Made by a program: the position numbers and the translations under genes
In this document: in pieces, positions 1 to 51,790 of the stretch
Numbering within the stretch: the stretch's first letter is position 1
How the letters are laid out: each line of letters opens with the position of its first letter
The notes under the pieces: generated by a model
What the model was told of the DNA's origin: nothing
What the model saw: the letters and a program-made list of their open reading frames with translations, nothing else
The model's database searches: none
Assembly: GCA_963920705.1 (NCBI GenBank)
Contig: OY987226.1
Span: 6,202,501-6,266,500 of the forward strand
Length of the DNA stretch: 64,000 bases
From: Odiellus spinosus
Lineage: Eukaryota; Arthropoda; Arachnida; Opiliones; Phalangiidae
Direction: 5' to 3'

Positions 1-743
1 TTTATTTTCAAAGGGCGTTTTATTTTCAAAGGGCGTGTTATTTTCAAAGGGCGTGTTATTTTCAAAGGGCGTGTTATTTTCAAAGGGCGTGTTATTTTCA
101 AAGGGCGTGTTATTTTCAAAGGGCGTGTTATTTTCAAAGGGCGTGTTATTTTCAAAGGGCGTGTTATTTTCAAAGGGCGTGTTATTTTCAAAGGGCGTGT
201 TATTTTCAAAGGGCGTGTTATTTTCAAAGGGCGTGTTATTTTCAAAGGGCGTGTTATTTTCAAAGGGCGTGTTATTTTCAAAGGGCGTGTTATTTTCAAA
301 GGGCGTGTTATTTTCAAAGGGCGTGTTATTTTCAAAGGGCGTGTTATTTTCAAAGGGCGTGTTATTTTCAAAGGGCGTGTTATTTTCAAAGGGCGTGTTA
401 TTTTCAAAGGGCGTGTTATTTTCAAAGGGCGTTTTATTTTCAAAGGGCGTTTTATTTTCAAAGGGCGTTTTATTTTCAAAGGGCGTTTTATTTTCAAAGG
501 GCGTTTTATTTTCAAAGGGCGTTTTATTTTCAAAGGGCGTTTTATTTTCAAAGGGCGTTTTATTTTCAAAGGGCGTTTTATTTTCAAAGGGCGTTTTATT
601 TTCAAAGGGCGTTTTATTTTCAAAGGGCGTTTTATTTTCAAAGGGCGTTTTATTTTCAAAGGGCGTTTTATTTTCAAAGGGCGTTTTATTTTCAAAGGGC
701 GTTTTATTTTCAAAGGGCGTTTTATTTTCAAAGGGCGTTTTAT
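1..743 (+). repeat. Satellite A, left arm (18-bp unit, forward)
   Basis: About 41 tandem copies of an 18-bp unit with core TTTTCAAAGGGCGT. Units from about 35 to 430 carry GTG after GGGC (GGGCGTGTTA). Units from about 431 to 743 carry GTT (GGGCGTTTTA), the same variant that adjoins satellite B on the other arm. The array runs off the window at position 1, so its true length is unknown. Because 18 is a multiple of three, the array reads as an endless VLFSKG peptide, which I treat as an artefact. Confidence 0.97.
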
Positions 744-795
744 TAATTATTAATTTTTATTTTTTTACAATAATACAAGGGGTGTATTTATCGTT
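739..795 (+). repeat. A-to-B junction, left arm
   Basis: A short non-repeat link joins satellite A to satellite B. It contains TTATTAATTATTAA, a T-run and ACAATAATACAAGGGGTG, and then leads into the first B1 unit. Nearly the same sequence occurs in reverse complement at 12,120-12,180, with about two differences in 68 bases. The two arms therefore share an ancestral junction. Confidence 0.9.
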
Positions 796-1612
796 TATTT
801 TTTTTTTACAGGGGGTGTATTTATCGTTTATTTTTTTTTACAGGGGGTGTATTTATCGTTTATTTTTTTTTACAGGGGGTGTATTTATCGTTTATTTTTT
901 TTACAGGGGGTGTATTTATAGTATATTTTTTTTTTACAGGGGGTGTATTTATCGTTTATTTTTTTTTTACAGGGGGTGTATTTATCGTTTATTTTTTTTA
1001 CAGGGGGTGTATTTATCGTATATTTTTTTTTACAGGGGGTATATTTATCGTTTATTTTTTTACAGGGGGTGTATTTATCGTTTATTTTTTTTTACAGGGG
1101 ATGTATTTATCGTTTATTTTTTTTTACAGGGGGTGTATTTATCGTTTATTTTTTTTTACAGGGGGTGTATTTATCGTTTATTTTTTTTTTACAGGGGGTG
1201 TATTTATCGTTTATTTTTTTTTACAGGGGGTGTATTTATCGTTTATTTTTTTTACAGGGGGTGTATTTATCGTTTTTTTTTTTACAGGGGGTGTATTTAT
1301 CGTTTATTTTTTTTACAGGGGGTGTATTTATCGTTTATTTTTTTTACAGAGGGTGTATTTATCGTTTATTTTTTTTACAGGGGGTGTATTTATCGTTTAT
1401 TTTATTTTTACAGGGGGTGTATTTATCGTTTATTTTTTTTTACAGGGGGTGTATTTATCGTTTATTTTTTTTTTACAGGGGGTGTATTTATCGTTTATTT
1501 TATTTTTACAGGGGGTGTATTTATCGTTTATTTTTTTTTACAGGGGGTGTATTTATCGTTTATTTTTTACAGGGGGTGTATTTATCGTTTATTTTTTTAC
1601 AGGGGGTGTATT
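780..1612 (+). repeat. Satellite B1, left arm (about 31-bp unit, forward)
   Basis: About 26 tandem units, each a run of 6-10 T, then ACAGGGGGTGTATTTATCG and TTTA. Unit length varies mainly through the T-run. Occasional variants are GGGATGTATT, GAGGGTGTATT and GGGGGTATATT. The CG in TATCG distinguishes B1 from B2, which has TATTATTTA. Each unit also resembles a 3' splice acceptor (pyrimidine tract followed by ACAG and G), which may be coincidental. Confidence 0.96.
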
Positions 1613-2880
1613 TATTATTTTCTCAATCTCAATTTTCTCAATCTCAATTTTCTCAATCTCAATTTTCTCAATCTCAATTTTCTCAATCTCAATTTTCTCA
1701 ATCTCAATTTTCTCAATCTCAATTTTCTCAATCTCAATTTTCTCAATCTCAATTTTCTCAATCTCAATTTTCTCAATCTCAATTTTCTCAATCTCAATTT
1801 TCTCAATCTCAATTTTCTCAATCTCAATTTTCTCAATCTTCTTTTTTTTACAGGGGGTGTATTTATTATTTATTTTTTTACAGGGGGTGTATTTATTATT
1901 TATTTATATTTTTTACAGGGGGTGTATTTATTATTTATTTATTTTTTTTAACAGGGGGTGTTCTTATTTATTTTTTTACAGGGGGTGTATTAATTTATTT
2001 TTTTTACAGGGGGTGTATTTATTTATTTTTTTTACAGGGGGTGTATTTATTATTTATTTTTTTTACAGGGGGTGTATTTATTATTTATTTTTTTTACAGG
2101 GGGTGTATTTATTATTTATTTTTTTTACAATGGGTGTATTTATTATTTATTTTTTTTACAATGGGTGTATTTATTATTTATTTTTTTTTCAGGGGGTGTA
2201 TTTATTATTTTCTCAATCTCAATTTTCTCAATCTTCTTTTTTTTACAGGGGGTGTATTTATTATTTTCTCAATCTCAATTTTCCAAATCTCAATTTTCCC
2301 AATCTTCTTTTTTTTTTACAGGGGGTGTATTTATTATTTATTTTTTTACAGGGGGTGTATTTATTATTTATTTATATTTTTTACAGGGGGTTTTTTATTA
2401 TTTATTTTTTTTACAGGGGGTGTATTTATTATTTTTACAGGGGGTGTATTTATTATTTATTTTTTTACAGGGGGTGTATTTATTATTTTTTTTTTACAGG
2501 GGGTGTATTTATTATTTATTTTTTTACAGGGGGTGTATTTATTATTTTCTCAATCTCAATTTTCTCAATCTCAATTTTCTCAATCTCAATTTTCTCAATC
2601 TCAATTTTCTCAATCTCAATTTTCTCAATCTCAATTTTCTCAATCTCAATTTTCTCAATCTCAATTTTCTCAATCTTCTTTTTTTTACAGGGGGTGTATT
2701 TATTATTTATTTTTTTTACAGGGGGTGTATTATTTATTTTTTTTACAGGGGGTGTATTTATTATTTATTTTTTTTACAGGGGGTGTATTTATTAATTTTT
2801 TTACAGGGGTGTATTTATTAATTTTTTTACAATGGATGTAATTATTATTTATTTTTTTACAGGGGGTGTATTTATTATTT
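1613..2880 (+). repeat. B2/C mosaic before the higher-order duplication
   Basis: B2 units (T-run, ACAGGGGGTGTATTTATTATTTA) alternate with C blocks at about 1621-1839, 2212-2237, 2264-2308 and 2545-2678. Variants include ACAATGGGTG units and an AACAGGGGGTGTTCTTA unit at 1950 that recurs at 3671 and 6461. No coding content is supported. Confidence 0.93.
1621..1839 (+). repeat. Satellite C array, largest block (15-bp unit)
   Basis: About 14.6 copies of TCTCAATCTCAATTT. The unit is itself two CTCAAT half-units plus TTT. The array begins directly after a B2 end (TATTTATTATTT) and leaves through TCTCAATCTTC followed by the T-run of the next B2 unit. Every other C block in the window uses the same entry and exit. 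Confidence 0.95.
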
Positions 2881-5690
2881 ATTTTTTTTACAGGGGGTGT
2901 ATTTATTATGTTTTTACAGGGGGTGTATTTATCGTTTATTTTTTTTTACAGGGGGTGTATTTATCGTTTATTTTATTTTTACAGGGGGTGTATTTATCGT
3001 TTATTTTTTTTACAGGGGGTGTATTTATCGTTTATTTTTTTACAGGGGGTGTATTTATCGTTTATTTTTTTTACAGGGGATGTATTTATCGTTTATTTTT
3101 TTACAGGGGGTGTATTTATTATTTATTTTTTTTACAGGGGGTGTATTTATTATGTTTTTACAGGGGGTGTATTTATCGTTTATTTTTTTTACAGGGGGTG
3201 TATTTATCGTTTATTTTTTTTTACAGGGGGTGTATTTATCGTTTATTTTATTTTTACAGGGGGTGTATTTATCGTTTATTTATTTTTACAGGGGGTGTAT
3301 TTATCGTTTATTTTTTTACAGGGGGTGTATTTATCGTTTATTTTTTTTACAGGGGATGTATTTATCGTTTATTTTTTTTACAGAGGGTGTATTTATCGTT
3401 TATTTTTTTACATTGGGTGTATTTATTATTTTCTCAATCTCAATTTTCTCAATCTCAATTTTCTCAATCTCAATTTTCTCAATCTCAATTTTCTCAATCT
3501 CAATTTTCTCAATCTCAATTTTCTCAATCTCAATTTTCTCAATCTCAATTTTCTCAATCTTCTTTTTTTTACAGGGGGTGTATTTATTATTTATTTTTTT
3601 ACAGGGGGTGTATTTATTATTTATTTATATTTTTTACAGGGGGTGTATTTATTATTTATTTATTTTTTTTAACAGGGGGTGTTCTTATTTATTTTTTTAC
3701 AGGGGGTGTATTTATTATTTATTTTTTTACAGGGGGTGTATTTATTATATATTTTTTTTACACTGGGTGTATTTATTATTTATTTTTTTTACAATGGGTG
3801 TATTTATTATTTATTTTTTTACAATGGGTGTATTTATTATTTATTTTTTTTACAGGGGGTGTATTTATTATTTTCTCAATCTCAATTTTCTCAATCTCAA
3901 TTTTCTCAATCTCAATTTTCTCAATCTCAATTTTCTCAATCTTCTTTTTTTTACAGGGGGTGTATTTATTATTTATTTTTTTTACAGGGGGTGTATTTAT
4001 TATTTATTTTTTTTACAGGGGGTGTATTTATTATTTATTTTTTTACAGGGGGTGTATTTATTATTTATTTTTTTTACAATGGGTGTATTTATTATTTATT
4101 TTTTTACAGGGGGTGTATTTATTATTTTCTCAATCTCAATTATCTCAATTTTCTCAATCTCAATTTTCTCAACCTCAATTTTCTCAATCTCAATTTTCTC
4201 AATCTCAATTTTCTCAATCTCAATTTTCTCAATCTCAATTTTCTCAATCTCAATTTTCTCAATCTCAATTTTCTCAATCTCAATTTTCTCAATCTCAATT
4301 TTCTCAATCTTCTTTTTTTTACAGGGGGTGTATTTATTATTTATTTTTTTTACAGGGGGTGTATTTATTATTTATTTTTTTACAATGGGTGTATTTATTA
4401 TTTTTTTTTTTTACAGGGGGTGTATTTATTATTTTCTCAATCTCCATTTTCTCAATCTCCATTTTCTCAATCTCAATTTTCTCAATCTCAATTTTCTCAA
4501 TCTCAATTTTCTCAATCTCAATTTTCTCAACCTCAATTTTCTCAATCTCAATTTTCTCAATCTCAATTTTCTCAATCTCAATTTTCTCAATCTCAATTTT
4601 CTCAATCTCAATTTTCTCAATCTCAATTTTCTCAATCTTCTTTTTTTTACAGGGGGTGTATTTATTATTTATTTTTTTTACAGGGGGTGTATTTATTATT
4701 TATTTTTTTTTACAGGGGGTGTATTTATTATTTATGTTTTTTACAGGGGGTGTATTTATTATTTATTTTTTTACAATGGGTGTATTTATTATTTATTTTT
4801 TTTACAGGGGGTGTATTTATTATTTTCTCAATCTCCATTTTCTCAATCTCAATTTTCTCAATCTCAATTTTCTCAATCTCAATTTTCTCAATCTCAATTT
4901 TCTCAATCTTCTTTTTTTTTACAGGGGGTGTATTTATTATTTTTTTTTTTTTACAGGGGGTGTATTATTTATTTTTTTACAGGGGGTGTATTTATTATTT
5001 ATTTTTTTTACAGGGGGTGTATTTATTAATTTTTTTACAGGGGGTGTATTTATTAATTTTTTTACAATGGATGTATTTATTATTTATTTTTTTACAGGGG
5101 GTGTATTTATTATTTATTTTTTTTACAGGTGGTGTATTTATTATGTTTTTACAGGGGGTGTATTTATCTTTTTTTTACAGGGGGTGTATTTATTATTTAT
5201 TTTTTTACAGGGGGTGTATTTATTTTTTTACAGGGGGTGTATTTATTTTTTTACAGGGGGTGTATTTATTATTTATTTTTTTTACAGGGGGTCTATTTAT
5301 TATTTTTACAGGGGGTGTATTTATTATTTTATTTTACAGGGGGTGTATTTATTATTTATTTTTTTACAGGGGGTGTATTTATTTTTTTACAGGGGGTGTA
5401 TTTATTTTTTTACAGGGGGTGTATTTATTTTTTTACAGGGGGTGTATTTATTTTTTTACAGGGGGTGTATTTATTATTTATTTTTTTTACAGGGGGTGTA
5501 TTTATTATTTATTTTTTTACAGGGGGTGTATTTATTATTTTTTTTTAACAGGGGGTGCATTTATTATTTTCTCAATCTCAATTTTCTCAATCTCAATTTT
5601 CTCAATCTCAATTTTCTCAATCTCAATTTTCTCAATCTCAATTTTCTCAATCTTCTTTTTTTTACAGGGGGTGTATTTATTATTTATTTT
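2880..5690 (+). repeat. Higher-order unit of satellite B/C, copy 1 (about 2.8 kb)
   Basis: A block with the order B1 (2,900-3,425), C, B2/C mosaic, then short B2 variants (5,040-5,560). Rare variant markers recur about 2.76-2.81 kb downstream in the same order: TATTATGTTTTTACAGG at 2903 and 3150; AACAGGGGGTGTTCTTA at 3671; CTCAATTATCTCAATT near 4137; CAATGGATGTA at 5065; AACAGGGGGTGCATTT at 5547. C blocks lie at about 3431-3562, 3871-3943, 4127-4312, 4433-4641, 4827-4911 and 5563-5655. Confidence 0.88.
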
Positions 5691-8430
5691 TTTTACAGGG
5701 GGTGTATTTATTATGTTTTTACAGGGGGTGTATTTATCGTTTATTTTTTTTTACAGGGGGTGTATTTATCGTTTATTTTATTTTTACAGGGGGTGTATTT
5801 ATCGTTTATTTTTTTTACAGGGGGTGTATTTATCGTTTATTTTTTTACAGGGGGTGTATTTATCGTTTATTTTTTTTACAGGGGATGTATTTATCGTTTA
5901 TTTTTTTTACAGGGGGTGTATTTATTATTTATTTTTTTTACAGGGGGTGTATTTATTATGTTTTTACAGGGGGTGTATTTATCGTTTATTTTTTTTACAG
6001 GGGGTGTATTTATCGTTTATTTTTTTTTACAGGGGGTGTATTTATCGTTTATTTTATTTTTACAGGGGGTGTATTTATCGTTTATTTATTTTTACAGATG
6101 GTGTATTTATCGTTTATTTTTTTACAGGGGGTGTATTTATCGTTTATTTTTTTTACAGGGGATGTATTTATCGTTTATTTTTTTTACAGAGGGTGTATTT
6201 ATCGTTTATTTTTTTACAGGGGGTGTATTTATTATTTTCTCAATCTCAATTTTCTCAATCTCAATTTTCTCAATCTCAATTTTCTCAATCTCAATTTTCT
6301 CAATCTCAATTTTCTCAATCTCAATTTTCTCAATCTCAATTTTCTCAATCTTCTTTTTTTTACAGGGGGTGTATTTATTATTTATTTTTTACAGGGGGTG
6401 TATTTATTATTTATTTATATTTTTTACAGGGGGTGTATTTATTATTTATTTATTTTTTTTAACAGGGGGTGTTCTTATTTATTTTTTTACAGGGGGTGTA
6501 TTTATTATTTATTTTTTTTACAGGGGGTGTATTTATTATATATTTTTTTTACAGGGGGTGTATTTATTATTTATTTTTTTTACAATGGGTGTATTTATTA
6601 TTTATTTTTTTTACAATGGGTGTATTTATTATTTATTTTTTTTACAGGGGGTGTATTTATTATTTTCTCAATCTCAATTTTCTCAATCTCAATTTTCTCA
6701 ATCTCAATTTTCTCAATCTTCTTTTTTTTACAGGGGGTGTATTTATTATTTATTTTTTTTACAGGGGGTGTATTTATTATTTATTTTTTTTTACAGGGGG
6801 TGTATTTATTATTTATTTTTTTACAGGGGGTGTATTTATTATTAATTTTTTTTTACAATGGGTGTATTTATTATTTATTTTTTTACAGGGGGTGTATTTA
6901 TTATTTTCTCAATCTCAATTATCTCAATTTTCTCAATCTCAATTTTCTCAACCTCAATTTTCTCAATCTCAATTTTCTCAATCTCAATTTTCTCAATCTC
7001 AATTTTCTCAATCTCAATTTTCTCAATCTCAATTTTCTCAATCTCAATTTTCTCAATCTCAATTTTCTCAATCTTCTTTTTTTTACAGGGGGTGTATTTA
7101 TTATTTATTTTTTTTACAGGGGGTGTATTTATTATTTTTTTTTTTTACAGGGGGTGTATTTATTATTTATGTTTTTTACAGGGGGTGTATTTATTATTTA
7201 TTTTTTTACAATGGGTGTATTTATTATTTATTTTTTTTACAGGGGGTGTATTTATTATTTTCTCAATCTCCATTTTCTCAATCTCCATTTTCTCAATCTC
7301 AATTTTCTCAATCTCAATTTTCTCAATCTCAATTTTCTCAATCTCAATTTTCTCAACCTCAATTTTCTCAATCTCAATTTTCTCAATCTCAATTTTCTCA
7401 ATCTAAATTTTCTCAATCTCAATTTTCTCAATCTTCTTTTTTTTACAGGGGGTGTATTTATTATTTATTTTTTTTACAGGGGGTGTATTTATTATTTATT
7501 TTTTTTTACAGGGGGTGTATTTATTATTTATGTTTTTTACAGGGGGTGTATTTATTATTTATTTTTTTACAATGGGTGTATTTATTATTTATTTTTTTTA
7601 CAGGGGGTGTATTTATTATTTTCTCAATCTCCATTTTCTCAATCTCAATTTTCTCAATCTCAATTTTCTCAATCTCAATTTTCTCAATCTTCTTTTTTTT
7701 TACAGGGGGTGTATTTATTATTTTTTTTTTTACAGGGGGTGTATTATTTATTTTTTTACAGGGGGTGTATTTATTATTTATTTTTTTTACAGGGGGTGTA
7801 TTTATTAATTTTTTTACAGGGGGTGTATTTATTAATTTTTTTACAATGGATGTATTTATTATTTATTTTTTTACAGGGGGTGTATTTATTATTTATTTTT
7901 TTTACAGGTGGTGTATTTATTATGTTTTTACAGGGGGTGTATTTATCTTTTTTTTACAGGGGGTGTATTTATTATTTATTTTTTTACAGGGGGTGTATTT
8001 ATTTTTTTACAGGGGGTGTATTTATTTTTTTACAGGGGGTGTATTTATTATTTATTTTTTTTACAGGGGATCTATTTATTATTTTTACAGGGGGTGTATT
8101 TATTATTTTATTTTACAGGGGGTGTATTTATTATTTATTTTTTTACAGGGGGTGTATTTATTTTTTTACAGGGGGTGTATTTATTTTTTTACAGGGGGTG
8201 TATTTATTTTTTTACAGGGGGTGTATTTATTATTTATTTTTTTTACAGGGGGTGTATTTATTATTTATTTTTTTACAGGGGGTGTATTTATTATTTTTTT
8301 TTAACAGGGGGTGCATTTATTATTTTCTCAATCTCAATTTTCTCAATCTCAATTTTCTCAATCTCAATTTTCTCAATCTCAATTTTCTCAATCTCAATTT
8401 TCTCAATCTTCTTTTTTTTACAGGGGGTGT
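5691..8430 (+). repeat. Higher-order unit of satellite B/C, copy 2
   Basis: Tandem duplicate of the preceding block. The matching markers lie near 5713, 5957, 6461, 6916, 7844 and 8303. C blocks occupy about 6236-6353, 6663-6721, 6905-7075, 7259-7435, 7619-7691 and 8324-8411. The copies differ in C copy number and in single units, for example ACAGATGGTG at about 6096 and GGGGATCTATT at about 8066 where copy 1 has GGGGGTCTATT. The duplication therefore predates some later change. Confidence 0.88.
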
Positions 8431-9270
8431 ATTTATTATTTATTTTTTTACAGGGGGTGTATTTATTATTTATTTATATTTTTTACAGGGGGTGTATTTA
8501 TTTATCTTTTTACAGGGGATGTATTTATTATTTATTTTTTTTACAGGGGGTGTATTTATTATTTATTTTTTTTACAATGGGTGTATTTATTATTTATTTT
8601 TTTTATAATGGGTGTATTTATTATTTATTTTTTTTACAGGGGGTGTATTTATTATTTTCTCAATCTCAATTTTCTCAATCTCAATTTTCTCAATCTTCTT
8701 TTTTTTACAGGGGGTGTATTTATTATTAATTTTTTTTACAGGGGGTGTATTTATTATTTATTTTTTTACAGGGGGTGTATTTATTATTTTTTTTTTTTAC
8801 AGGGGGTGTATTTATTATTTATTTTTTTTACAGGGGGTGTATTTATTATTTATTTTTTTTTACAATGGGTGTATTTATTATTTATTTTTTTTACAGGGGG
8901 TGTATTTATTATCTTCTCAATCTCAATTTTCTCAATCTCAATTTTCTCAATCTCAATTTTCTCAATCTTCTTTTTTTTACAGGGGGTGTATTTATTATTT
9001 ATTTTTTTACAGGGGGTGTATTTATTATTTATTTTTTTTTACAGGGGGTGTATTTATTAATTTTTTTTACAATGGGTGTATTTATTATTTATTTTTTTAC
9101 AGGGGGTGTATTTATTATTTATTTTTTTACATGGGGTGTATTTATTATTTATTTTTTTACAGGGTGTGTATTTATTATTTTCTCAATCTCTATTTTCTCA
9201 ATCTCAATTTTCTCAATCTCCATTTTCTCAATCTCAATTTTCTCAATCTCAATTTTCTCAATCTCAATTT
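8431..9270 (+). repeat. B2/C mosaic next to the inversion point
   Basis: B2 units with C blocks at about 8657-8699, 8915-8969 and 9179-9270. Variants accumulate toward the centre, such as ACATGGGGTG at about 9129, ACAGGGTGTG at about 9160 and C units with TCTCTATT or TCTCCATT. The last C block stops abruptly at about 9270, and the next repeats are on the opposite strand. Confidence 0.93.
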
Positions 9271-9596
9271 TTAATAAATACAGCCCCTGTAAAAAAATAA
9301 ATAATAAATACACCCCCTGTAAAAAAAATAAATAATAAATACACCCCATGTAAAAAAATTAAATAATAAATACACCCCCTGTAAGAAAAATAAATAATAA
9401 ATACACCCCCAGAAAAAAATAAATAATAAATACACCCCCTGTAAAAAAAATAACAAATACACCCCCTGTAAAAAAAAATAAATAATAAATACACCACCTG
9501 TAAAAAAAAAATAAATAATAAATACACCCCCTGTAAAAAAAATAATAAATACACCCCCTGTAATAAAAATAATAAATACACCCCCTGTAATAAAAA
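9271..9596 (-). repeat. Satellite B2, inverted
   Basis: About ten reverse-complement B2 units (AATAAATACACCCCCTGT then an A-run). The first unit after the flip has ACAGCCCCTGT. Others are degenerate: CCCCATGT, CCCCCAG and CACCACCTGT. This is the first inverted stretch and marks the strand switch at about 9271. Confidence 0.95.
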
Positions 9597-9770
9597 TAGA
9601 TTTTTTTTTTACAAGGGCTACCCGTTGTAAAAAATATTAATTGGTTTTTTTACAAGACCCCTTGTAAAAAAATAATTGATTTTTTTTATAAGGGGTACCC
9701 TTTGTATAAAATAATTGGTTTTTTTTACAAGGGGTACCCCTTACATAAAAAAAATAATAATTGATTTTTA
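9597..9770. repeat. Central spacer of four small palindromes
   Basis: Four imperfect copies of a 35-45 bp unit begin with ATAG or ATTGG/ATTGA at about 9597, 9640, 9675 and 9714. Each contains a T-run, ACAAGGGGTACCCCTTGT or a decayed form, and an A-run, so each can fold on itself. The half-site TTTTACAAGGGG resembles the B core TTTTACAGGGGG. Each unit therefore looks like a B half joined to its own reverse complement. This sequence type occurs only here in the window. Confidence 0.85.
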
Positions 9771-12139
9771 ATAAATACACCCCCTGTAAAAAAATTAAAT
9801 AATAAATACACCCCCTGTAAAAAAATTATATAATAAATACACCCCCTGTAAAAAAATATAAACGATAAATACACCCCCTGTAAAAAAAATAATAAACGAT
9901 AGATACACCCCCTGTAAAAAAAATAATAAACGATAAATACACCCCCTGTAAAAAAAAATAAACGATAAATACACCCCCTGTAAAAAAAATAAACGATAAA
10001 TACACCCCCTGTAAAAAAAAATAAACGATAAATACACCCCCTGTAAAAAAAATAAACGATAAATACACCCCCTGTAAAAAAAAATAAACGATAAATACAC
10101 CCCCTGTAAAAAAAATAAATGATAAATACACGCCCTGTAAAAAAAAATAAACGATAAATACACCCCCTGTAAAAATAAAATAAACGATAAATACACCCCC
10201 TGTAAAAAAAAATAAACGATAAATACACCCCCTGTAAAAAAAAAATAAATGATAAATACACCCCGTGTAAAAAAAATAAACGATAAATACACCCCCTGTA
10301 AAAAAAAAATAAACGATAAATACACCTACTGTAAAAAAAAATATACGATAAATACACCCCCTGTAAAAAAAAATAAACGATAAATACACCCCCTGTAAAA
10401 AAAAATAAACGATAAATACACCCACTTTAAAAAAAAATAAACGATAAATACACCCCCTGTAAAAAAAAATAAACGATAAATACACCCCCTGTAAAAATAA
10501 AATAAACGATAAACACACCCCCTGTAAAAAAAAATAAACGATAAATACACCCCCTGTAAAAAAAAATAAACGATAAATACACCCCCTGTAAAAAAAAAAT
10601 AAACGATAAATACACCCCCTGTAAAAAAAAGTAAACGATAAATACACCCCCTGTAAAAAAATAAACGATAAATACACCCCCTGTAAAAAAAAAATAAACG
10701 ATAAATACACCCCCTGTAAAAAAAAATAAACGATAAATACACCCCCTGTAAAAAAAATAAACGATAAATACACCCCCTGTAAAAAAAATAAACGATAAAT
10801 ACACCCCCTGTAAAAAAAAATAAACGATAAATACACCCCCTGTAAAAAAAATAAACGATAAATACACCCCTGTAAAAAAAATAAACGATAAATACACCCC
10901 CTGTAAAAAAAATAAACGATAAATACACCCCCTGTAAAAAAATAAACGATAAATACACCCCCTGTAAAAAAAATAAACGATAAATACACCCCTGTAAAAA
11001 AAATAAACGATAAATACACCCCCTGTAAAAAAAATAAACGATAAATACACCCCCTGTAAAAAAAAATAAACGATAAATACACCCCCTGTAAAAATAAAAT
11101 AAACGATAAATACACCCCCTGTAAAAAAAATAAACGATAAATACACCCCCTGTAAAAAAAAAAATAAACGATAAATACACCCCCTGTAAAAAAAAATAAA
11201 TGATAAATACACCCCCTGTAAAAAAAAATAAACGATAAATACACCCCTTGTAAAAAAAAATAAACGATAAATACACCCCCTGTAATAAAAAATAAACGAT
11301 AAATACACCCCCTGTAAAAAAAATAAACGATAAATACACCCCATTAAAAAAAAAATAAACGATAAATACACCCCCTGTAAAAAAAATAAACGATAAATAC
11401 ACCCCCTGTAAAAATAAAATAAACGATAAATACACCCCCTGTAAAAAAATAAACGATAAATACACCCCCTGTAAAAAAAAGTAAACGATAAATACACCCT
11501 CTGTAAAAAAAATAAACGATAAATACACCCCCTGTAAAAAAAATAAACGATAAATACACCCCCTGTAAAAAAAATAAACGATAAATACACCCCCTGTAAA
11601 AAAATAAACGATAAATACACCCCCTGTAAAAAAAATAAACGATAAATACACCCCCTGTAAAACAAATAAACGATAAATACACCCCCTGTAAAAAAAATAA
11701 ACGATAAATACACCCCCTGTAAAAAAAATAAACGATAAATACACCCCCTGTAAAAAAAAAATAAACGATAAATACACCCCCTGTAAAAAAAAAATAAACG
11801 ATAAATACACCCCCTGTAAAAAAAAAATAAACGATAAATACACCCCCTGTAAAAAAAAAAATAAACGATAAATACACCCCCTGTAAAAAAAGTAAACGAT
11901 AAATACACCCTCTGTAAAAAAAATAAACGATAAATACACCCCTTGTAAAAAAAATAAACTATAAATACACCTCCTGTAAAAAAAAATAAACGATAAATAC
12001 ACCCCCTGTAAAAAAAAATAAACGATAAATACACCCCCTGTAAAAAAAAATAAACGATAAATACACCCCCTGTGAAAAAAATAAACGATAAATACACCCC
12101 CTGTAAAAAAAAAATAAACGATAAATACACCCCTTGTAT
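9771..12139 (-). repeat. Satellite B1, right arm (inverted)
   Basis: Two or three inverted B2-like units are followed by about 73 inverted B1 units (CGATAAATACACCCCCTGT plus an A-run). No C block interrupts this arm, unlike the left arm. Occasional variants are CACGCCCTGT at about 10129, CACCTACTGT at about 10322, CACCCACTTT at about 10420 and TAATAAAAAA at about 11285. Confidence 0.96.
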
Positions 12140-12180
12140 TATGGTAAAAAAATAATAATTAATTATTAATAAAACGCCCT
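12120..12180 (-). repeat. B-to-A junction, right arm (inverted)
   Basis: Contains CACCCCTTGTATTATGG, an A-run and TTAATTATTAATAAAACG. In reverse complement it matches the left-arm junction at 739-795 almost base for base. It includes the unusual CCCCTTGTATTAT unit that caps the B1 array. Confidence 0.9.
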
Positions 12181-14643
12181 TTGAAAATAAAACGCCCTTT
12201 GAAAATAAAACGCCCTTTGAAAATAAAACGCCCTTTGAAAATAAAACGCCCTTTGAAAATAAAACGCCCTTTGAAAATAAAACGCCCTTTGAAAATAAAA
12301 CGCCCTTTGAAAATAAAACGCCCTTTGAAAATAAAACGCCCTTTGAAAATAAAACGCCCTTTGAAAATAAAACGCCCTTTGAAAATAAAACGCCCTTTGA
12401 AAATAAAACGCCCTTTGAAAATAAAACGCCCTTTGAAAATAAAACGCCCTTTGAAAATAAAACGCCCTTTGAAAATAAAACGCCCTTTGAAAATAAAACG
12501 CCCTTTGAAAATAAAACGCCCTTTGAAAATAAAACGCCCTTTGAAAATAAAACGCCCTTTGAAAATAAAACGCCCTTTGAAAATAAAACGCCCTTTGAAA
12601 ATAAAACGCCCTTTGAAAATAAAACGCCCTTTGAAAATAAAACGCCCTTTGAAAATAAAACGCCCTTTGAAAATAAAACGCCCTTTGAAAATAAAACGCC
12701 CTTTGAAAATAAAACGCCCTTTGAAAATAAAACGCCCTTTGAAAATAAAACGCCCTTTGAAAATAAAACGCCCTTTGAAAATAAAACGCCCTTTGAAAAT
12801 AAAACGCCCTTTGAAAATAAAACGCCCTTTGAAAATAAAACGCCCTTTGAAAATAAAACGCCCTTTGAAAATAAAACGCCCTTTGAAAATAAAACGCCCT
12901 TTGAAAATAAAACGCCCTTTGAAAATAAAACGCCCTTTGAAAATAAAACGCCCTTTGAAAATAAAACGCCCTTTGAAAATTAAACGCCCTTTGAAAATTA
13001 AACGCCCTTTGAAAATTAAACGCCCTTTGAAAATAAAACGCCCTTTGAAAATAAAACGCCCTTTGAAAATAAAACGCCCTTTGAAAATAAAACGCCCTTT
13101 GAAAATAAAACGCCCTTTGAAAATAAAACGCCCTTTGAAAATAAAACGCCCTTTGAAAATAAAACGCCCTTTGAAAATAAAACGCCCTTTGAAAATAAAA
13201 CGCCCTTTGAAAATAAAACGCCCTTTGAAAATAAAACGCCCTTTGAAAATAAAACGCCCTTTGAAAATAAAACGCCCTTTGAAAATAAAACGCCCTTTGA
13301 AAATAAAACGCCCTTTGAAAATAAAACGCCCTTTGAAAATAAAACGCCCTTTGAAAATAAAACGCCCTTTGAAAATAAAACGCCCTTTGAAAATAAAACG
13401 CCCTTTGAAAATAAAACGCCCTTTGAAAATAAAACGCCCTTTGAAAATAAAACGCCCTTTGAAAATAAAACGCCCTTTGAAAATAAAACGCCCTTTGAAA
13501 ATAAAACGCCCTTTGAAAATAAAACGCCCTTTGAAAATAAAACGCCCTTTGAAAATAAAACGCCCTTTGAAAATAAAACGCCCTTTGAAAATAAAACGCC
13601 CTTTGAAAATAAAACGCCCTTTGAAAATAAAACGCCCTTTGAAAATAAAACGCCCTTTGAAAATAAAACGCCCTTTGAAAATAAAACGCCCTTTGAAAAT
13701 AAAACGCCCTTTGAAAATAAAACGCCCTTTGAAAATAAAACGCCCTTTGAAAATAAAACGCCCTTTGAAAATAAAACGCCCTTTGAAAATAAAACGCCCT
13801 TTGAAAATAAAACGCCCTTTGAAAATAAAACGCCCTTTGAAAATAAAACGCCCTTTGAAAATAAAACGCCCTTTGAAAATAAAACGCCCTTTGAAAATAA
13901 AACGCCCTTTGAAAATAAAACGCCCTTTGAAAATAAAACGCCCTTTGAAAATAAAACGCCCTTTGAAAATAAAACGCCCTTTGAAAATAAAACGCCCTTT
14001 GAAAATAAAACGCCCTTTGAAAATAAAACGCCCTTTGAAAATAAAACGCCCTTTGAAAATAAAACGCCCTTTGAAAATAAAACGCCCTTTGAAAATAAAA
14101 CGCCCTTTGAAAATAAAACGCCCTTTGAAAATAAAACGCCCTTTGAAAATAAAACGCCCTTTGAAAATAAAACGCCCTTTGAAAATAAAACGCCCTTTGA
14201 AAATAAAACGCCCTTTGAAAATAAAACGCCCTTTGAAAATAAAACGCCCTTTGAAAATAAAACGCCCTTTGAAAATAAAACGCCCTTTGAAAATAAAACG
14301 CCCTTTGAAAATAAAACGCCCTTTGAAAATAAAACGCCCTTTGAAAATAAAACGCCCTTTGAAAATAAAACGCCCTTTGAAAATAAAACGCCCTTTGAAA
14401 ATAAAACGCCCTTTGAAAATAAAACGCCCTTTGAAAATAAAACGCCCTTTGAAAATAAAACGCCCTTTGAAAATAAAACGCCCTTTGAAAATAAAACGCC
14501 CTTTGAAAATAAAACGCCCTTTGAAAATAAAACGCCCTTTGAAAATAAAACGCCCTTTGAAAATAAAACGCCCTTTGAAAATAAAACGCCCTTTGAAAAT
14601 AAAACGCCCTTTGAAAATAAAACGCCCTTTGAAAATAAAACGC

Positions 14644-14857
14644 CCTTCGAAAATAAAACGCCCTTCGAAAATAAAACGCCCTTCGAAAATAAAACGCCCT
14701 TCGAAAATAAAACGCCCTTCGAAAATAAAACGCCTTCGAAAATAAAACGCCCTTCGAAAATAAAACGCCCTTCGAAAATAAAACGCCCTTCGAAAATAAA
14801 ACGCCCTTCGAAAATAAAACGCCCTTCGAAAATAAAACGCCCTTCGAAAATAAAACG
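14644..14857 (-). repeat. Inner TTCGAA variant block of satellite A
   Basis: About twelve consecutive units carry TTCGAA, adding a CpG and a six-base palindrome, between blocks of TTTGAA units. One unit here lost a C. Such islands are typical of local amplification of a mutant unit. Confidence 0.9.
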
Positions 14858-15342
14858 CCCTTTGAAAATAAAACGCCCTTTGAAAATAAAACGCCCTTTG
14901 AAAATAAAACGCCCTTTGAAAATAAAACGCCCTTTGAAAATAAAACGCCCTTTGAAAATAAAACGCCCTTTGAAAATAAAACGCCCTTTGAAAATAAAAC
15001 GCCCTTTGAAAATAAAACGCCCTTTGAAAATAAAACGCCCTTTGAAAATAAAACGCCCTTTGAAAATAAAACGCCCTTTGAAAATAAAACGCCCTTTGAA
15101 AATAAAACGCCCTTTGAAAATAAAACGCCCTTTGAAAATAAAACGCCCTTTGAAAATAAAACGCCCTTTGAAAATAAAACGCCCTTTGAAAATAAAACGC
15201 CCTTTGAAAATAAAACGCCCTTTGAAAATAAAACGCCCTTTGAAAATAAAACGCCCTTTGAAAATAAAACGCCCTTTGAAAATAAAACGCCCTTTGAAAA
15301 TAAAACGCCCTTTGAAAATAAAACGCCCTTTGAAAATAAAAC

Positions 15343-18300
15343 GCCCTTCGAAAATAAAACGCCCTTCGAAAATAAAACGCCCTTCGAAAATAAAACGCCC
15401 TTCGAAAATAAAACGCCCTTCGAAAATAAAACGCCCTTCGAAAATAAAACGCCCTTCGAAAATAAAACGCCCTTCGAAAATAAAACGCCCTTCGAAAATA
15501 AAACGCCCTTCGAAAATAAAACGCCCTTCGAAAATAAAACGCCCTTCGAAAATAAAACGCCCTTCGAAAATAAAACGCCCTTCGAAAATAAAACGCCCTT
15601 CGAAAATAAAACGCCCTTCGAAAATAAAACGCCCTTCGAAAATAAAACGCCCTTCGAAAATAAAACGCCCTTCGAAAATAAAACGCCCTTCGAAAATAAA
15701 ACGCCCTTCGAAAATAAAACGCCCTTCGAAAATAAAACGCCCTTCGAAAATAAAACGCCCTTCGAAATAAAACGCCCTTCGAAAATAAAACGCCCTTCGA
15801 GAATAAAACGCCCTTCGAGAATAAAACGCCCTTCGAGAATAAAACGCCCTTCGAGAATAAAACGCCCTTCGAGAATAAAACGCCCTTCGAGAATAAAACG
15901 CCCTTCGAAAATAAAACGCCCTTCGAAAATAAAACGCCCTTCGAAAATAAAACGCCCTTCGAAAATAAAACGCCCTTCGAAAATAAAACGCCCTTCGAAA
16001 ATAAAACGCCCTTCGAAAATAAAACGCCCTTCGAAAATAAAACGCCCTTCGAAAATAAAACGCCCTTCGAAAATAAAACGCCCTTCGAAAATAAAACGCC
16101 CTTCGAAAATAAAACGCCCTTCGAAAATAAAACGCCCTTCGAAAATAAAACGCCCTTCGAAAATAAAACGCCCTTCGAAAATAAAACGCCCTTCGAAAAT
16201 AAAACGCCCTTCGAAAATAAAACGCCCTTCGAAAATAAAACGCCCTTCGAAAATAAAACGCCCTTCGAAAATAAAACGCCCTTCGAAAATAAAACGCCCT
16301 TCGAAAATAAAACGCCCTTCGAAAATAAAACGCCCTTCGAAAATAAAACGCCCTTCGAAAATAAAACGCCCTTCGAAAATAAAACGCCCTTCGAAAATAA
16401 AACGCCCTTCGAAAATAAAACGCCCTTCGAAAATAAAACGCCCTTCGAAAATAAAACGCCCTTCGAAAATAAAACGCCCTTCGAAAATAAAACGCCCTTC
16501 GAAAATAAAACGCCCTTCGAAAATAAAACGCCCTTCGAAAATAAAACGCCCTTCGAAAATAAAACGCCCTTCGAAAATAAAACGCCCTTCGAAAATAAAA
16601 CGCCCTTCGAAAATAAAACGCCCTTCGAAAATAAAACGCCCTTCGAAAATAAAACGCCCTTCGAAAATAAAACGCCCTTCGAAAATAAAACGCCCTTCGA
16701 AAATAAAACGCCCTTCGAAAATAAAACGCCCTTCGAAAATAAAACGCCCTTCGAAAATAAAACGCCCTTCGAAAATAAAACGCCCTTCGAAAATAAAACG
16801 CCCTTCGAAAATAAAACGCCCTTCGAAAATAAAACGCCCTTCGAAAATAAAACGCCCTTCGAAAATAAAACGCCCTTCGAAAATAAAACGCCCTTCGAAA
16901 ATAAAACGCCCTTCGAAAATAAAACGCCCTTCGAAAATAAAACGCCCTTCGAAAATAAAACGCCCTTCGAAAATAAAACGCCCTTCGAAAATAAAACGCC
17001 CTTCGAAAATAAAACGCCCTTCGAAAATAAAACGCCCTTCGAAAATAAAACGCCCTTCGAAAATAAAACGCCCTTCGAAAATAAAACGCCCTTCGAAAAT
17101 AAAACGCCCTTCGAAAATAAAACGCCCTTCGAAAATAAAACGCCCTTCGAAAATAAAACGCCCTTCGAAAATAAAACGCCCTTCGAAAATAAAACGCCCT
17201 TCGAAAATAAAACGCCCTTCGAAAATAAAACGCCCTTCGAAAATAAAACGCCCTTCGAAAATAAAACGCCCTTCGAAAATAAAACGCCCTTCGAAAATAA
17301 AACGCCCTTCGAAAATAAAACGCCCTTCGAAAATAAAACGCCCTTCGAAAATAAAACGCCCTTCGAAAATAAAACGCCCTTCGAAAATAAAACGCCCTTC
17401 GAAAATAAAACGCCCTTCGAAAATAAAACGCCCTTCGAAAATAAAACGCCCTTCGAAAATAAAACGCCCTTCGAAAATAAAACGCCCTTCGAAAATAAAA
17501 CGCCCTTCGAAAATAAAACGCCCTTCGAAAATAAAACGCCCTTCGAAAATAAAACGCCCTTCGAAAATAAAACGCCCTTCGAAAATAAAACGCCCTTCGA
17601 AAATAAAACGCCCTTCGAAAATAAAACGCCCTTCGAAAATAAAACGCCCTTCGAAAATAAAACGCCCTTCGAAAATAAAACGCCCTTCGAAAATAAAACG
17701 CCCTTCGAAAATAAAACGCCCTTCGAAAATAAAACGCCCTTCGAAAATAAAACGCCCTTCGAAAATAAAACGCCCTTCGAAAATAAAACGCCCTTCGAAA
17801 ATAAAACGCCCTTCGAAAATAAAACGCCCTTCGAAAATAAAACGCCCTTCGAAAATAAAACGCCCTTCGAAAATAAAACGCCCTTCGAAAATAAAACGCC
17901 CTTCGAAAATAAAACGCCCTTCGAAAATAAAACGCCCTTCGAAAATAAAACGCCCTTCGAAAATAAAACGCCCTTCGAAAATAAAACGCCCTTCGAAAAT
18001 AAAACGCCCTTCGAAAATAAAACGCCCTTCGAAAATAAAACGCCCTTCGAAAATAAAACGCCCTTCGAAAATAAAACGCCCTTCGAAAATAAAACGCCCT
18101 TCGAAAATAAAACGCCCTTCGAAAATAAAACGCCCTTCGAAAATAAAACGCCCTTCGAAAATAAAACGCCCTTCGAAAATAAAACGCCCTTCGAAAATAA
18201 AACGCCCTTCGAAAATAAAACGCCCTTCGAAAATAAAACGCCCTTCGAAAATAAAACGCCCTTCGAAAATAAAACGCCCTTCGAAAATAAAACGCCCTTC

Positions 18301-18560
18301 GAAAATAAAACGCCCTTCGAAAATAAAACGCCCTTCGAAAATAAAACGCCCTTCGAAAATAAAACGCCCTTCGAAAATAAAACGCCCTTCGAAAATAAAA
18401 CGCCCTTCGAAAATATAACGCCCTTCGAAAATATAACGCCCTTCGAAAATATAACGCCCTTCGAAAATAAAACGCCCTTCGAAAATAAAACGCCCTTCGA
18501 AAATAAAACGCCCTTCGAAAATATAACGCCCTTCGAAAATAAAACGCCCTTCGAAAATAT
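15343..18560 (-). repeat. Outer TTCGAA variant block of satellite A
   Basis: About 178 units with TTCGAA form the outer half of the array. Six adjacent CGAGAATA units (about 15,793-15,905) sit near its inner edge. ATATAACG units appear only at the outer edge (18,412-18,560), consistent with less homogenisation at the array border. Confidence 0.9.
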
Positions 18561-18576
18561 AACGCCCTTTGAAAAA

Positions 18577-18620
18577 ATTGAGATTGGGGAAAATTGAGAT
18601 TGGGGAAAATTGAGATTGGG
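18577..18620 (-). repeat. Three C-like units at the outer edge of the right arm
   Basis: Three copies of a 16-bp unit ATTGAGATTGGGGAAA (reverse complement of a CCCAATCTCAAT form of C) lie immediately outside satellite A. C-type sequence is thus found at the outer edge of the right arm as well as inside the left arm, here on the opposite strand. Non-repetitive DNA starts after it. Confidence 0.85.
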
Positions 18621-19856
18621 ATATAACCAATATATTATGACTGCGCCATCTTGAGACGATTTCAAAAACCCAATCGCGAGAGCACTATTGAAGCACGAAA
18701 TAATAGAATTCGCCTGAATTTACTCCGCGCTTAACCAAACTTCTGAATTTAAATTAAGCACTAAATTGTTGCCTAAAAATCGTGGAAAAACTATTTTATT
18801 CATTGATTGTTTGTGCGCAGATTCTGAAAAAAATTCCAAAGCTATTCCACTTTCAGGCCCTAAATTCACTTTAAAAAATATTTTGTTTAGCTGGTGAAAA
18901 ATTTGGTTTTCGCTGCAAAAATAGCTTGGTGAAAATAAACATCTATAATAACTTACTGTTCTAGATTTTTTTTTTTGCAAAATAAGTTTTTTTCTGTAGT
19001 TTCGTAATAAAAAACGTTATCACTATTTTTAAATTTTGTCGTCATTTGAATCCTTACGTTCCTTTTTCGATCAAATGAATCTTCGTGTAAAGAATTTGAG
19101 AGTTCATCAAGTCAACTCTTTGTCGAAAACATCAAAATCGTGCAAGTGGACAGGCCAAATCTTAACATTAACAACTGAACTAAGATCTAGTAGAATAATT
19201 GTACCTTCAGCTTCTACACGAAGAGGGAAATTAGACCATCGTTCACTCAACGGTAATAATAACTAGTAATTTTTCTCTGAAATCAATCTTTACTCCATTT
19301 AAATTTAATTACGAATAACTTATAATAGACCGCCAAGTTTCTAAGTTCTAGTTAAAAAAATGTAAAAATAAGTAATCAATTGTTTAAAGAAAGAAGAGAG
19401 TTGCTAAAAAAAACTTAGAATTTGTAATGACTTTCTAAGAGCCGCTGAAATTAGATCCATCGTATAAGAACGCTTATCTAGAGTCTATGTTTAGAAAATT
19501 GCCTATACCAAAACATTATCGCGGCATTAGAAAAGGCTTTAAATTTTTAATGAAAAAACCAATAACCCTATGGAAATTTACGCTCCATTTAAGGTTATAA
19601 CGAAATATATGGGAAAGTGGTTGCTTTAAAATGGCAAGCTTCAAAGAATAGATCTTTCCAAAGAAATAGTTTCATTTATTTTAATTTAAAATAATTTGTT
19701 ACTTGTAGAATTATTTTACGGCGTTTAATATTTTATTACTCGAGATTCTTAACCCGATTTTCCCTTCACTTAATTTTAAATCTAAATTTTGAGATCTCTG
19801 CTTCACAATGTCGTAATCAATGGTATTTTAACAATAGTTCTTCCGGTATGTTAATA
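18621..19856. other. AT-rich single-copy stretch without recognisable gene
   Basis: No repeat structure or recognisable coding sequence is visible. The two short open frames here (18,720-18,980 minus, 86 residues; 19,036-19,266 plus, 76 residues) have no domain, no membrane segment and no support beyond length. I regard them as chance. Confidence 0.6.
18643..18651 (-). promoter_or_regulatory. CTCF-like core next to the satellite edge
   Basis: The minus strand reads AGATGGCGC, the core of the CTCF motif known from insects and vertebrates. It lies about 25 bp outside the last satellite unit. Binding is inferred from the motif only. Confidence 0.3.
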
Positions 19857-33461: not shown

Positions 33462-33732
33462 GTTCATTTCGGTTCTTTTCGGGGCTTTATTTCCATTAAA
33501 GCGAGTGGATTCTGGTCCATTAATTAGTAAATATTTTAAAGCCATATTTAACCATGTTAACCCCATTGTGCACCACAACAGTATTAATTATAGAACTTGG
33601 TTAATTGTAATCGAGTCTTTTTCTCGTTAAAAGATCTTTAAAGGGTGTAATTATATTATACGTAACTAATTACGAGGAAAAAAAACGGTTAAATTCAAGA
33701 AATGCTACAAATAATACATTATTGGCGCGTCT
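33461..33732. repeat. Diverged edge unit of the 535-bp satellite
   Basis: Contains weakened forms of the satellite landmarks in order: TTTCGGTTCTTTTCGGGG, CCATTAAAGCGAGTGGA, AATATTTTAAA, CGTAACTAATTACGAGG and TTATTGGCGCGTCTATGG. It is clearly older or less homogenised than the inner units, as expected at an array border. Confidence 0.8.
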
Positions 33733-36700
33733 ATGGAGATTAACATTGCAAAATTTGATTTTAAATATTTTATTTCGGAAAAACTAATGAACGGATCGGA
33801 TTCCACTCACTTTAATGGAAATAGGACCCCAAAACGAACCGAAATCCACCAAAAAAAAGTTCCAGATTAGAAACTTTATTTTTTCACTTTTTCGAAAAAA
33901 AGGAGAAAAGCAAAAATTAATTTTTTAAATTTTGGCCAAGTTTCAAAATGTCAAAAATAAAGTTTCGAATCTGGAACCTTTTTTGGTGGATTTCGGTTCC
34001 TTTAGGGGTCCTATTTCCATTAAAGCGAGTTGAGTCCGATCCGTCAATTAGTTTTTCCGAAATAAAATATTTAAAATGATATTTCGCTATGTTAATCTCC
34101 ATAGGCGCGACAATAATGCATTATTTGGAGTATTTGGTTGATTTTGACCCGGTTTTCTTCTCGTAATTAGTTACGTAATTTATAATTATGCCGTACAAAG
34201 GGCTTTTAACCAGGAAAAACCCGGTTACAATCAATCAGATACTTCAAATAATTAATTATTGACGCGCCTATGGAGATTAACATAGCGAAATATGATTTTA
34301 AATATTTTATTTTGAGAAAACTAATGCACGGATCAGACTCAACTCGCTTTAATGGAAATAGGACCCCAAAACGAATCGAAATCCACAAAAAAAGGTTCCA
34401 GATTCGAAACTTCATTTTTGCACTTTTTCCAAAATACGCGAAAACCAAAAATGAATTCTTTAAATTTTAGCCAAGTTTCAAAATCTCAAAAATAAAGTTT
34501 CGAATCTGAAACCTTTTTTGGTGGATTTCGGTTCCTTTAGGGGTCCTATTTCCATTAAAGCGAGTTGAGTCGGATCTGTTCATTACTTTTTCCCAAATAA
34601 AATATTTAAAATCATATTTCGCTATGTTATTCTCCATAGGCGCGACAATAATGCATTATTTGGAGTATTTGGTTGATTTTGACCGGGTTTTCTTCTCGTA
34701 ATTAGTTACGTAATTTATAATTATGCCGTTCAAAGGGCTTTTAACCAGGAAAAAAACTGGTTAAAATCAATCAAATACTCCAAATAATTAATTATTGGCG
34801 CGCCTATGGAGATTAACATTGCTAAATATGATTTTAAATATTTTATTTTGAGAAAACTAATGCACGGATCGGACTCAACTCGCTTTAATGGAAATAGGAC
34901 CCCAAAACGAATCGAAATCCACAAAAAAAGGTTCCAGATTCGAAACTTTATTTTTGCACTTTTTCGAAAATACGCGAAAACCAAAAATGAATTCTTTAAA
35001 TTTTCGCCAAGTTTCAAAATCTCAAAAATAAAGTTTCGAATCTGAAACCTTTTTTGGTGGATTTCGGTTCCTTTAGAGGTCCTATTTCCATTAAAGCGAG
35101 TTGAGTCCAATCCGTTCATTAGTTTTTCCCAAATAAAATATTTAAAATCATATTTCGCTATGTTAATTTCCATAGACGCGACAATAATGCATTATTTGGA
35201 GTATTTGGTTGATTTTGACCCGGTTTTCTTCTCGTAATTAGTTACGTAATTAATAATTATGCCGTTCAAAGGGCTTTTAACCAGGAAAAAACCGGTTAAA
35301 ATCAATCAAATACTCCAAATAATTAATTATTGGCGCGCCTATGGAGATTTACATAGCTAAATATGATTTTAAATATTTTATTTTGAGAAAACTAATGCAC
35401 GGATCGGACTCAACTCGCTTTAATGGAAATAGGACCCCAAAACGAATCGAAATCCACAAAAAAAAGGTTCCAGATTCGAAACTTTATTTTTGCACTTTTT
35501 CGAAAATACGCGAAAACCAAAAATGAATTCTTTAAATTTTAGCCAAGTTTCAAAATGTCAAAATAAAGTTTCGAATCTGCAACCTTTTTTGGTGGATTTC
35601 TGTTCCTTTAGGGGTCCTATTTCCATTAAAGCGAGTTGAGTCTGATCTGTTCATTACTTTTTCCCAAATAAAATATTTAAAATCATATTTCGCTATGTTA
35701 ATTTCCATAGGCGCGACAAAAAATCATTATTTGGAGTATTTGGTTGATTTTGACCGGGTTTTCTTCTCGTAATTAGTTACGTAATTTATAATTATGCCGT
35801 TCAAAGGGCTTTTAACCAGGAAAAACCCGGTTAAAATCAATCAAATACTACAAATAATTAATTATTGGCGCGCCTATGGAGATTAACATAGCGAAATATG
35901 ATTTTAAATATTTTATTTTGAGAAAACTAATGCACGGATCGGACTCAACTCGCTTTAATGGAAATAGGACCCCAAAACGAATCGAAATCCATAAAAAAAA
36001 AAGGTTCCAGATTCGAAACTTTATTTTTGCACTTTTTCGAAAATACGCGAAAACCAAAAATGAATTCTTTAAATTTTAGCAAAGTTTCAAAATGTCAAAA
36101 ATAAAGTTTCGAATCTGAAACCTTTTTTGGTGGATTTCGGTTCCTTTAGAGGTCCTATTTCCATTAAAGCGAGTTGAGTCCAATCCGTTCATTAGTTTTT
36201 CCCAAATAAAATATTTAAAATCATATTTCGCTATGTTAATTTCCATAGACGCGCCAATAATGTATTATTTGGAGTATTTGGTTGATTTTGATCGGGTTTT
36301 CTTCTCGTAATTAGTTACGTAATTTATAATTATGCCGTTCAAAGGGCTTTTACCCAGGAAAAACCCGGTTAAAATCAAAGAAATACTCCAAATAATTGAT
36401 TATTGACGGGCCTATGGAGATTAACATAGCGAAATATGATTTTAAATATTTTATTTTGAGAAAAATAATGCACAGATCGGACTCAACTCGCTTTAATGGA
36501 AATATGACCCCTAAACGAATCAAAATCCACAAAAAAAGATATAGGATTCGAAACTTTATTTTTGCACTTTTTTGAAGAAATGAGAAAACCAAAAATGAAT
36601 TTTTTCAATTTAGCGAAGTTTCAAAAAGTGCAAAAATAAAGTTTCGAATCTGAAACCTTTTTTGGTGGATTTCGGTTCCTTTAGGGGTCCTATTTCCATT

Positions 36701-36810
36701 AAAGCGAGTTGAGTCCGAACCGTTCATTAGTTTTTCATAAATAAAATATTTAAAATTATATTTCGCTATGTTAATCTCCATAGGCTCGCCAATAATGCAT
36801 TATTTGGCGA
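33733..36810. repeat. 535-bp satellite with internal dyads, about 5.7 units
   Basis: Units begin at ATGGAGATTAACAT or close forms near 33,733, 34,270, 34,806, 35,341, 35,876 and 36,414, giving spacings of 535-538 bp. Each unit holds two inverted repeats. In the first, GATTAACATAGCGAAATATG through CGCTTTAATGGAAATAGGAC pairs with GTCCTATTTCCATTAAAGCG through CATATTTCGCTATGTTAATC. In the second, TTTGGAGTATTTGGTTGATT pairs with AATCAATCAAATACTCCAAA. Units meet at GGCGCGCC or a close form. The last unit is partial. Recurrent 60-147 residue open frames are satellite by-products. Confidence 0.93.
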
Positions 36811-51431: not shown

Positions 51432-51790
51432 GCTGTACACCGATTTCTAATTACGCGTAATCATTTTAGCACTGTCAAAGGAAAGAACTTTAAAGATTAC
51501 GCTTAATCGCTTCAGTTTACAATAAAAGGTGCAGTCTGTACACCGATTACTAATTACGCATAATCATGTTAGCACTGTGACAGCCCGGGAATTTAAAGAT
51601 TACGCGTAATCGCTTCAGCGTAGAACAAAAGGTACAGTCTTACACCGATTACTAATTACGCGTAATCATTTTAGCTCTGTCAAATGCAAAGATTTTATAG
51701 ATTACGCGTAATCATTTTAGCACTGTCAAAGGCAAGGATTTTAAAAATTACGCGTAATTGTTTCAGTTTACAGTAAAAGGTAGTCTCTAC
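51432..51790. repeat. About 103-bp tandem repeat built on the palindrome ATTACGCGTAAT
   Basis: About 3.5 copies start CTGTACACCGATTACTAATT, continue ATTACGCGTAATCATTTTAG, CACTGTCAAAGGCAAAGA and GATTACGCGTAATCGCTTCA, and end ACAATAAAAGGTACAGT. Starts lie near 51,432, 51,536 and 51,638. Each copy carries the 12-bp palindrome ATTACGCGTAAT or a one-base variant twice, about 45-50 bp apart. The last copy has one half duplicated. Confidence 0.9.

Follow-up and report, generated by a model that had tools for sequence, protein, structure and literature searches.

Opposed arms of minisatellite repeats at a locus of Odiellus spinosus and related mirrored arrays across the genome

The first 18.6 kb of the window, a stretch of 64,000 nucleotides from Odiellus spinosus (C2:6,202,501-6,266,500; contig OY987226.1; genome of 443 Mb in 286 contigs), is a composite of minisatellites arranged in two opposed arms. 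A mirror architecture is present here and at other loci, with one favoured orientation of the units, and the freshest locus that was read is a true palindrome. The array in the window, referred to below as locus 1, is probably one old member of a dispersed foldback-like or macro-dyad family of long inverted repeats made of minisatellites.

Locus 1 contains the three unit families A, B and C that an initial annotation of the sequence had recognized, with unit lengths of 18, about 31, and 15 bp. The A array of 18-bp units (TTATTTTCAAAGGGCGTT/G) occupies positions 1–744 on the + strand and extends about 434 bp beyond the left window edge, to a start at ~C2:6,202,067, giving the whole array a length of ~19.05 kb. 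Just outside this start lie worn 13–14-bp units resembling AGTTTTTCAAGAGT. A unique linker (745–775, +), which by alignment has a mirrored counterpart on the right arm, leads into B units, chiefly of the ATCG subtype (774–1616, +), and then into a long segment of the ATTATT subtype with some ATCG units (1617–9271, +). This segment is broken by C blocks and carries a 2.76–2.81-kb tandem duplication; the copies at 4,942 and 7,721, for example, are exactly alike over 349 nt. The strand switch is situated at 9,271/9,272, where the C array abuts inverted B units (9272–9595, −). These are followed by D units (9596–9760, assigned to neither strand), a fourth unit type consisting of short palindromes around GGGGTACCCC, by an inverted B array chiefly of the ATCG subtype (9771–12138, −), by the inverted linker (12139–12167, −), and by an inverted A array with about 356 units, identical variants being grouped in blocks (12168–18575, −). 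Three inverted C-like 16-bp units, AAAATTGAGATTGGGG, form the outer edge (18574–18620, −), so the earlier statement that C occurs only in the left interior is inexact.

The opposed arms are borne out by the distribution of exact unit cores. The A core C[AG]AAGGGCG is found 41 times on the + strand (9–729) and 355 times on the − strand (12,172–18,560), and the B core TACAGGGGGTGTA is found 168 times on the + strand (807–9,098) and 67 times on the − strand (9,309–12,093). Left of the switch both cores lie solely on the + strand and right of it solely on the − strand, with no crossing either way. From the outside to the centre, both arms follow the order A, linker, B-ATCG, B-ATTATT. The G-rich strand had been described as running toward the centre on both sides. 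This holds for A and B in both arms but not for C, as C-rich bins have a negative GC skew, whereas a rule that the T-rich strand faces the centre is valid for all three families. Comparison of the unit consensus sequences gave scores of 37 for B with D, 34 for A with the A-like unit of locus 3, and 32 for C with its own 24-bp form; the other 25 of the 28 pairs scored 8–22, and no common ancestor of the units is shown by these scores. Rfam and ARAGORN reported no matches in the window, Pfam placed none of 10 flank ORFs above its cut-offs, and a scan of IMG/VR with the A pattern returned 0 matches.

The initial annotation held that the two arms are not copies of one another. This is correct for the interior, where the C blocks and the 2.76–2.81-kb duplication are found on the left only and D on the right only, but at the A/linker/B junction one arm mirrors the other. 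Positions 1–837 are 97% complementary, in register, to 12,075–12,911, and the aligned region covers A, the unique linker, and B. Over the 150 nt of the junction compared across the arms there are four mismatches and one internal 1-nt indel, and the innermost A units are of an identical variant on the left and right. Counted against the smaller arm, 16% of the distinct 30-mers recur mirrored in the other arm and none recur there in direct orientation, compared with 13% common to locus 1 and the best arm from another locus. An inverted pair also straddles the array, with one half at C2:6,198,981–6,199,275 and the other at 18,757–19,036 of the window (−), and matches at 84% over about 295 nt. The halves are unequally spaced, about 2.8 kb and 0.14 kb from the array ends. 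An inverted duplication could once have taken in some flank, or the pair could be a common repeat, the right half of which may be dispersed. As for a target-site duplication at locus 1, no common word of five or more letters was found in the 40 bases outside each end.

Searches of the whole genome reveal that locus 1 has many relatives. A 34-mer representing an A dimer has 84 forward and 301 reverse matches, against 0 for a reversed-pattern control; those listed include matches at C2:213 kb (locus 2) and C2:3.335 Mb (locus 3). These two loci were found through A alone and were read whole (locus 2 at C2:204,755–218,516). In each, from left to right, T-rich units give way to A-rich units at a single main switch; as an exception, the right edge of locus 2 closes with D-containing 62-bp units on the + strand. 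Loci 1, 2, and 3 are isolated, and at 9–19 kb they stay below the megabase scale. Adjoining locus 2 is an exon-like stretch (L013:4,855–5,160). Among proteins of solved structure, relaxin and glycoprotein-hormone receptors match it (19 sequences, with a best E of 6e-17); Pfam at E 0.01 yields nothing for it.

The orientation of the units was further examined through the junctions between B units. Converging junctions, with units facing each other across 5–65 bases, have 316 forward and 323 reverse matches genome-wide, versus 42 forward and 40 reverse matches for diverging junctions, and the reversed-pattern controls gave 0 in both cases. A good part of the diverging matches are palindromic D-containing units. 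The 100 converging matches listed represent 51 distinct places (on C1, on C2, and on C3 as far as 21.77 Mb), or, after merging, 35 sites and 28 loci; over the same span there are 8 diverging sites in 7 loci. A binomial comparison that assumes independence yields p 4e-5 for sites and p 5e-4 for loci, and duplication of arrays makes the sites partly dependent on one another. Extrapolation from the share of matches listed leads to an estimate of ~170 converging loci in the genome. A junction query produced 282 matches at E ≤ 0.001, and among those listed, all four clusters with matches on both strands run from + to −: C1:24.98–25.00, C2:6.20–6.21 (the window), C5:9.01–9.03, and C8:15.66 Mb. More than one flip is found in L062, L063, L065, L067, and L068, as at the right edge of locus 2, mainly involving the D-containing 62-bp units. 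At the C5 locus (L036; C5:9,010,874), there are, beside B, more unit families of like style, with arrays of 18-bp CACTTTCAACGGGTCTTT and about 22-bp TTTTCAAAAAAGGGGTGTTTTA units.

To compare the arms within and between loci, nine loci were used, five of which (L057–L061) had been fetched by the converging pattern, and the C8 locus had been chosen for its strands. Since L057–L061, L064, and L068 all came from the converging pattern, their orientation is not independent evidence. Arms have no 30-mers in common in direct orientation at any of the nine loci. In six of the nine, sharing of distinct 30-mers is higher between the locus's own arms than with any compared arm elsewhere. The other three (locus 3, L059, and L061) share fewer between their arms than with another locus, the shared fraction being 0.07 for locus 3, 0.00 for L061, and 0.17 for L059, versus 0.18 between L059 and another locus.

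The clearest mirror is seen in L064 (C2:2.38 Mb), picked from the converging list, which is layered as A-type, B / B, A-type, with a diverged 22–24-bp array as its A-type. Across 1,151 aligned nt its arms agree at 98%, compared with 94% for shifted-self controls, and odd units recur in mirrored order. Mirroring at the C8 locus (L056; C8:15,661,501–15,670,500) also includes a non-tandem stretch: 344 nt with tRNA-like boxes is mirrored at 98% across a distance of 4.5 kb, and the 48-bp and 12–14-bp arrays are mirrored too (425 nt, 98%). Inside this palindrome, at 567–1,994 and 6,165–7,103, there are mirrored 137/275-bp repeats with the tRNA-like GGTTCGAATCCC boxes; neither ARAGORN nor Rfam reports a gene in L056. 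When shifted-self controls were applied to eight loci, they were beaten only by L064 and, by score, L058; L057, L060, and L068 fell within the range of the controls, and L056, L059, and L061 fell below at least one of them. Members range from near-perfect palindromes to worn ones such as locus 1. In our reading, the loci with weak sharing are older, and their two arms have been re-amplified separately, each from founder units of its own; the alternative for the same loci is an independent growth of the two arms.

We favour a family of palindromic origin because of the 837-nt mirror at 97% in locus 1, the excess of converging over diverging junctions (316 versus 42 forward matches), and the mirrored arms of L064 and L056. 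Each locus would then have started as a palindrome, from one of two putative sources: the insertion of a foldback-type element with repeats in its arms, or a template switch at a short palindrome, for instance GGGGTACCCC, that yielded an inverted duplication. Inverted duplication was among the readings that the initial annotation offered, and it is favoured here, though a foldback element looks identical. Subsequently, unequal exchange and local tandem duplication would drive the arms apart, until in old members such as locus 1 nothing but the A/linker/B junction would still be in register. The favoured orientation would follow if the members stem from one converging arrangement. Transposition of the family may have been the route of dispersal, a candidate to be set beside the lack of a common terminus or target duplication at the ends examined. 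A likely direct consequence of the architecture is a predicted hairpin or cruciform in the DNA, or a hairpin transcript.

Of the alternatives, two are the least improbable. According to one, T/G-rich repeats were added to both 3′ ends of breaks that were then joined, and no inverted copying took place. Units converge even in L061 and locus 3, where the arms share almost no variants, and several loci fail to beat their shifted-self controls. The absence of arm-to-arm sharing at three of nine loci and of a target duplication at locus 1 strengthens this alternative and tempers the preferred reading. The in-register mirrored arms at C2:2.38 Mb and C8:15.66 Mb and the junction of locus 1 speak against it, however, and homogenization of blocks within arms would account equally well for a lost register; we consider it unlikely. 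An inverted duplication at locus 1 alone, through breakage-fusion-bridge or a template switch and with some flank included, would explain the mirrored A/linker/B junction and the 295-nt inverted pair on both sides of the array. Against this stand the similar architecture at many unlinked loci and the unequal spacing of a pair that may be a common repeat, and it seems improbable to a like degree. The arrays might also have been created in assembly by folded-back reads or mis-joins. Long near-identical arrays are difficult to assemble, and the evidence here comes from an assembly. Such an artefact is nevertheless very doubtful, as the initial annotation had argued from the dissimilar arms, for the pattern is repeated at many loci with different flanks and different centre sequences.

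The initial annotation had also likened the array to two chromosome ends fused head to head, which would make A, B, and C telomeric or subtelomeric and the centre of the array the fusion point. The G-rich strands of A and B do face the centre, as in telomere fusions. The array lies 6.2 Mb inside C2, however, a contig of 34,489,198 bases that carries TTAGG at both ends: the end of C2 is a TTAGG array (2,995 nt of the last 3 kb), and its start consists of 2,500 N followed by CCTAA. TTAGG is a repeat known in arthropods. Eight terminal 3-kb pieces (the starts of C1–C7 and the end of C2) contain no A and no C, and a single isolated B core, in C1. Because the C2 ends carry TTAGG and no A or C is present in the end pieces, C2 does not use A, B, or C as its telomere repeat. 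A telomeric identity was seen for the two C2 pieces alone, as the starts of C1 and C3–C7 show no array like the TTAGG of C2. Converging junctions with 316 forward matches across the genome are likewise not expected from chromosome fusions, and a fusion is extremely improbable. Near the start of C1 (L018; C1:1–3,000) there is a short mixed TCAGG/TTAGG stretch, whereas the C2 ends are pure TTAGG.

Several known systems resemble the array in part, the closest in the literature surveyed being the macro-dyad satellites of Tribolium and the foldback elements of Drosophila. Macro-dyad symmetry has recently been described for satellites of Tribolium madens and, according to its authors, is documented only in Tribolium (PMC13081366); in a later paper (PMC13427858), the term appears in the reference list only. 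As described there, the Tribolium macro-dyads have intermingled families, mostly one change of orientation, subarrays of unequal length, an extent from kilobases to tens of kilobases, and hairpin potential (PMC13081366). Those arrays are reported from putative (peri)centromeres and megabase regions, with a minor satellite of 704 bp derived from a ~110-bp basic unit (PMC13081366), whereas the present family occupies separate loci, one of them beside a putative receptor exon, in a genome with TTAGG at the C2 ends, and stacks several families of 15–31-bp units. In locus 1 the inverted subarrays meet at one inversion site; elsewhere in the family, some loci have more than one flip. In kind, the architecture matches the Tribolium macro-dyads, from which the family departs in its many separate loci, short units, and stacked families.

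Dispersed long inverted repeats that contain tandem repeats are also the mark of foldback elements, and they are present here; mirrored copying is clear in a subset of loci. The FB element of D. melanogaster is a foldback element whose inverted arms carry internal tandem repeats. Tetris of Drosophila virilis is similarly dispersed with tandem repeats inside inverted arms and can seed satellite arrays; it differs in having a common outer domain and 8–10-bp target duplications, neither of which was found here, and the arms here reach ~9 kb (PMC4079207). In Galileo, the tandem repeats in the terminal inverted repeats change in copy number independently in each arm, but these are ~210-bp repeats, in up to three copies, and the element belongs to the P superfamily and has a gene for a transposase (PMC3573991). 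Interstitial telomeric sequences can likewise have repeats that meet head to head within a chromosome (PMC9498494), but the repeat here is not the TTAGG of the C2 ends, and converging junctions have hundreds of matches. An interstitial site with converging G-rich repeats is not necessarily a chromosome fusion. A full-text search for known names with six unit strings returned unrelated subjects only, among the matches listed.

A broader reading is put forward tentatively and may well not hold: a genome-wide process that builds and rebuilds mirror arrays of minisatellites, several kilobases long, at well over 100 sites, the T-rich strand of each unit family facing the centre, which would amount to dispersed macro-dyads beyond Tribolium, possibly a foldback family grown to about 19 kb through its arm repeats. 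The series from young to worn members could serve to test how such symmetries originate and wear down, and whether a centromere is required.

The centres and ends of the arrays are variable. D units (GGGGTACCCC) are found at the switch or close to it in loci 1 and 2 and within the left arm in locus 3. D of this type is near several switches, but the junction sequences listed vary. D as a perfect palindrome of 70–92 bp at every centre was rejected: 26 centres match their own reverse complement at 36–58 of 92 positions. The D 70-mer itself is palindromic, but D at real centres is palindromic over a far shorter core. Units of 62 bp joining D and B are found in L062, L065, L067, and the right edge of C2:204–218 kb, and L065 contains a perfect palindrome of 86 bp at 619–704. 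A miniature transposon is a possible ancestor of the 62-bp units; the idea that these units or the 86-bp palindrome are a TA-flanked mariner-like miniature element is kept as a guess, as the edges are inconsistent. In the few ends examined, the edges of the 62-bp type stop near ACAAGGG(G) and then TA in L065 and L066, and locus 2 lacks the TA. The ends of loci 1, 2, and 3 differ from one another, and these few ends have no common terminus.

The remainder of the window contains further tandem repeats. At 33,672–36,932 there are about six copies of a ~535-bp tandem unit with inverted halves, a second, smaller satellite of the dyad type, whose listed arms of 178–220 nt are 86–91% complementary. 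Other repeats in the flank are situated at 38,717–39,453 (129 bp), 44,291–44,545 (20 bp), 51,433–51,758 (103/46 bp), 57,389–57,670 (83 bp), and 62,205–62,803 (23–31 bp).
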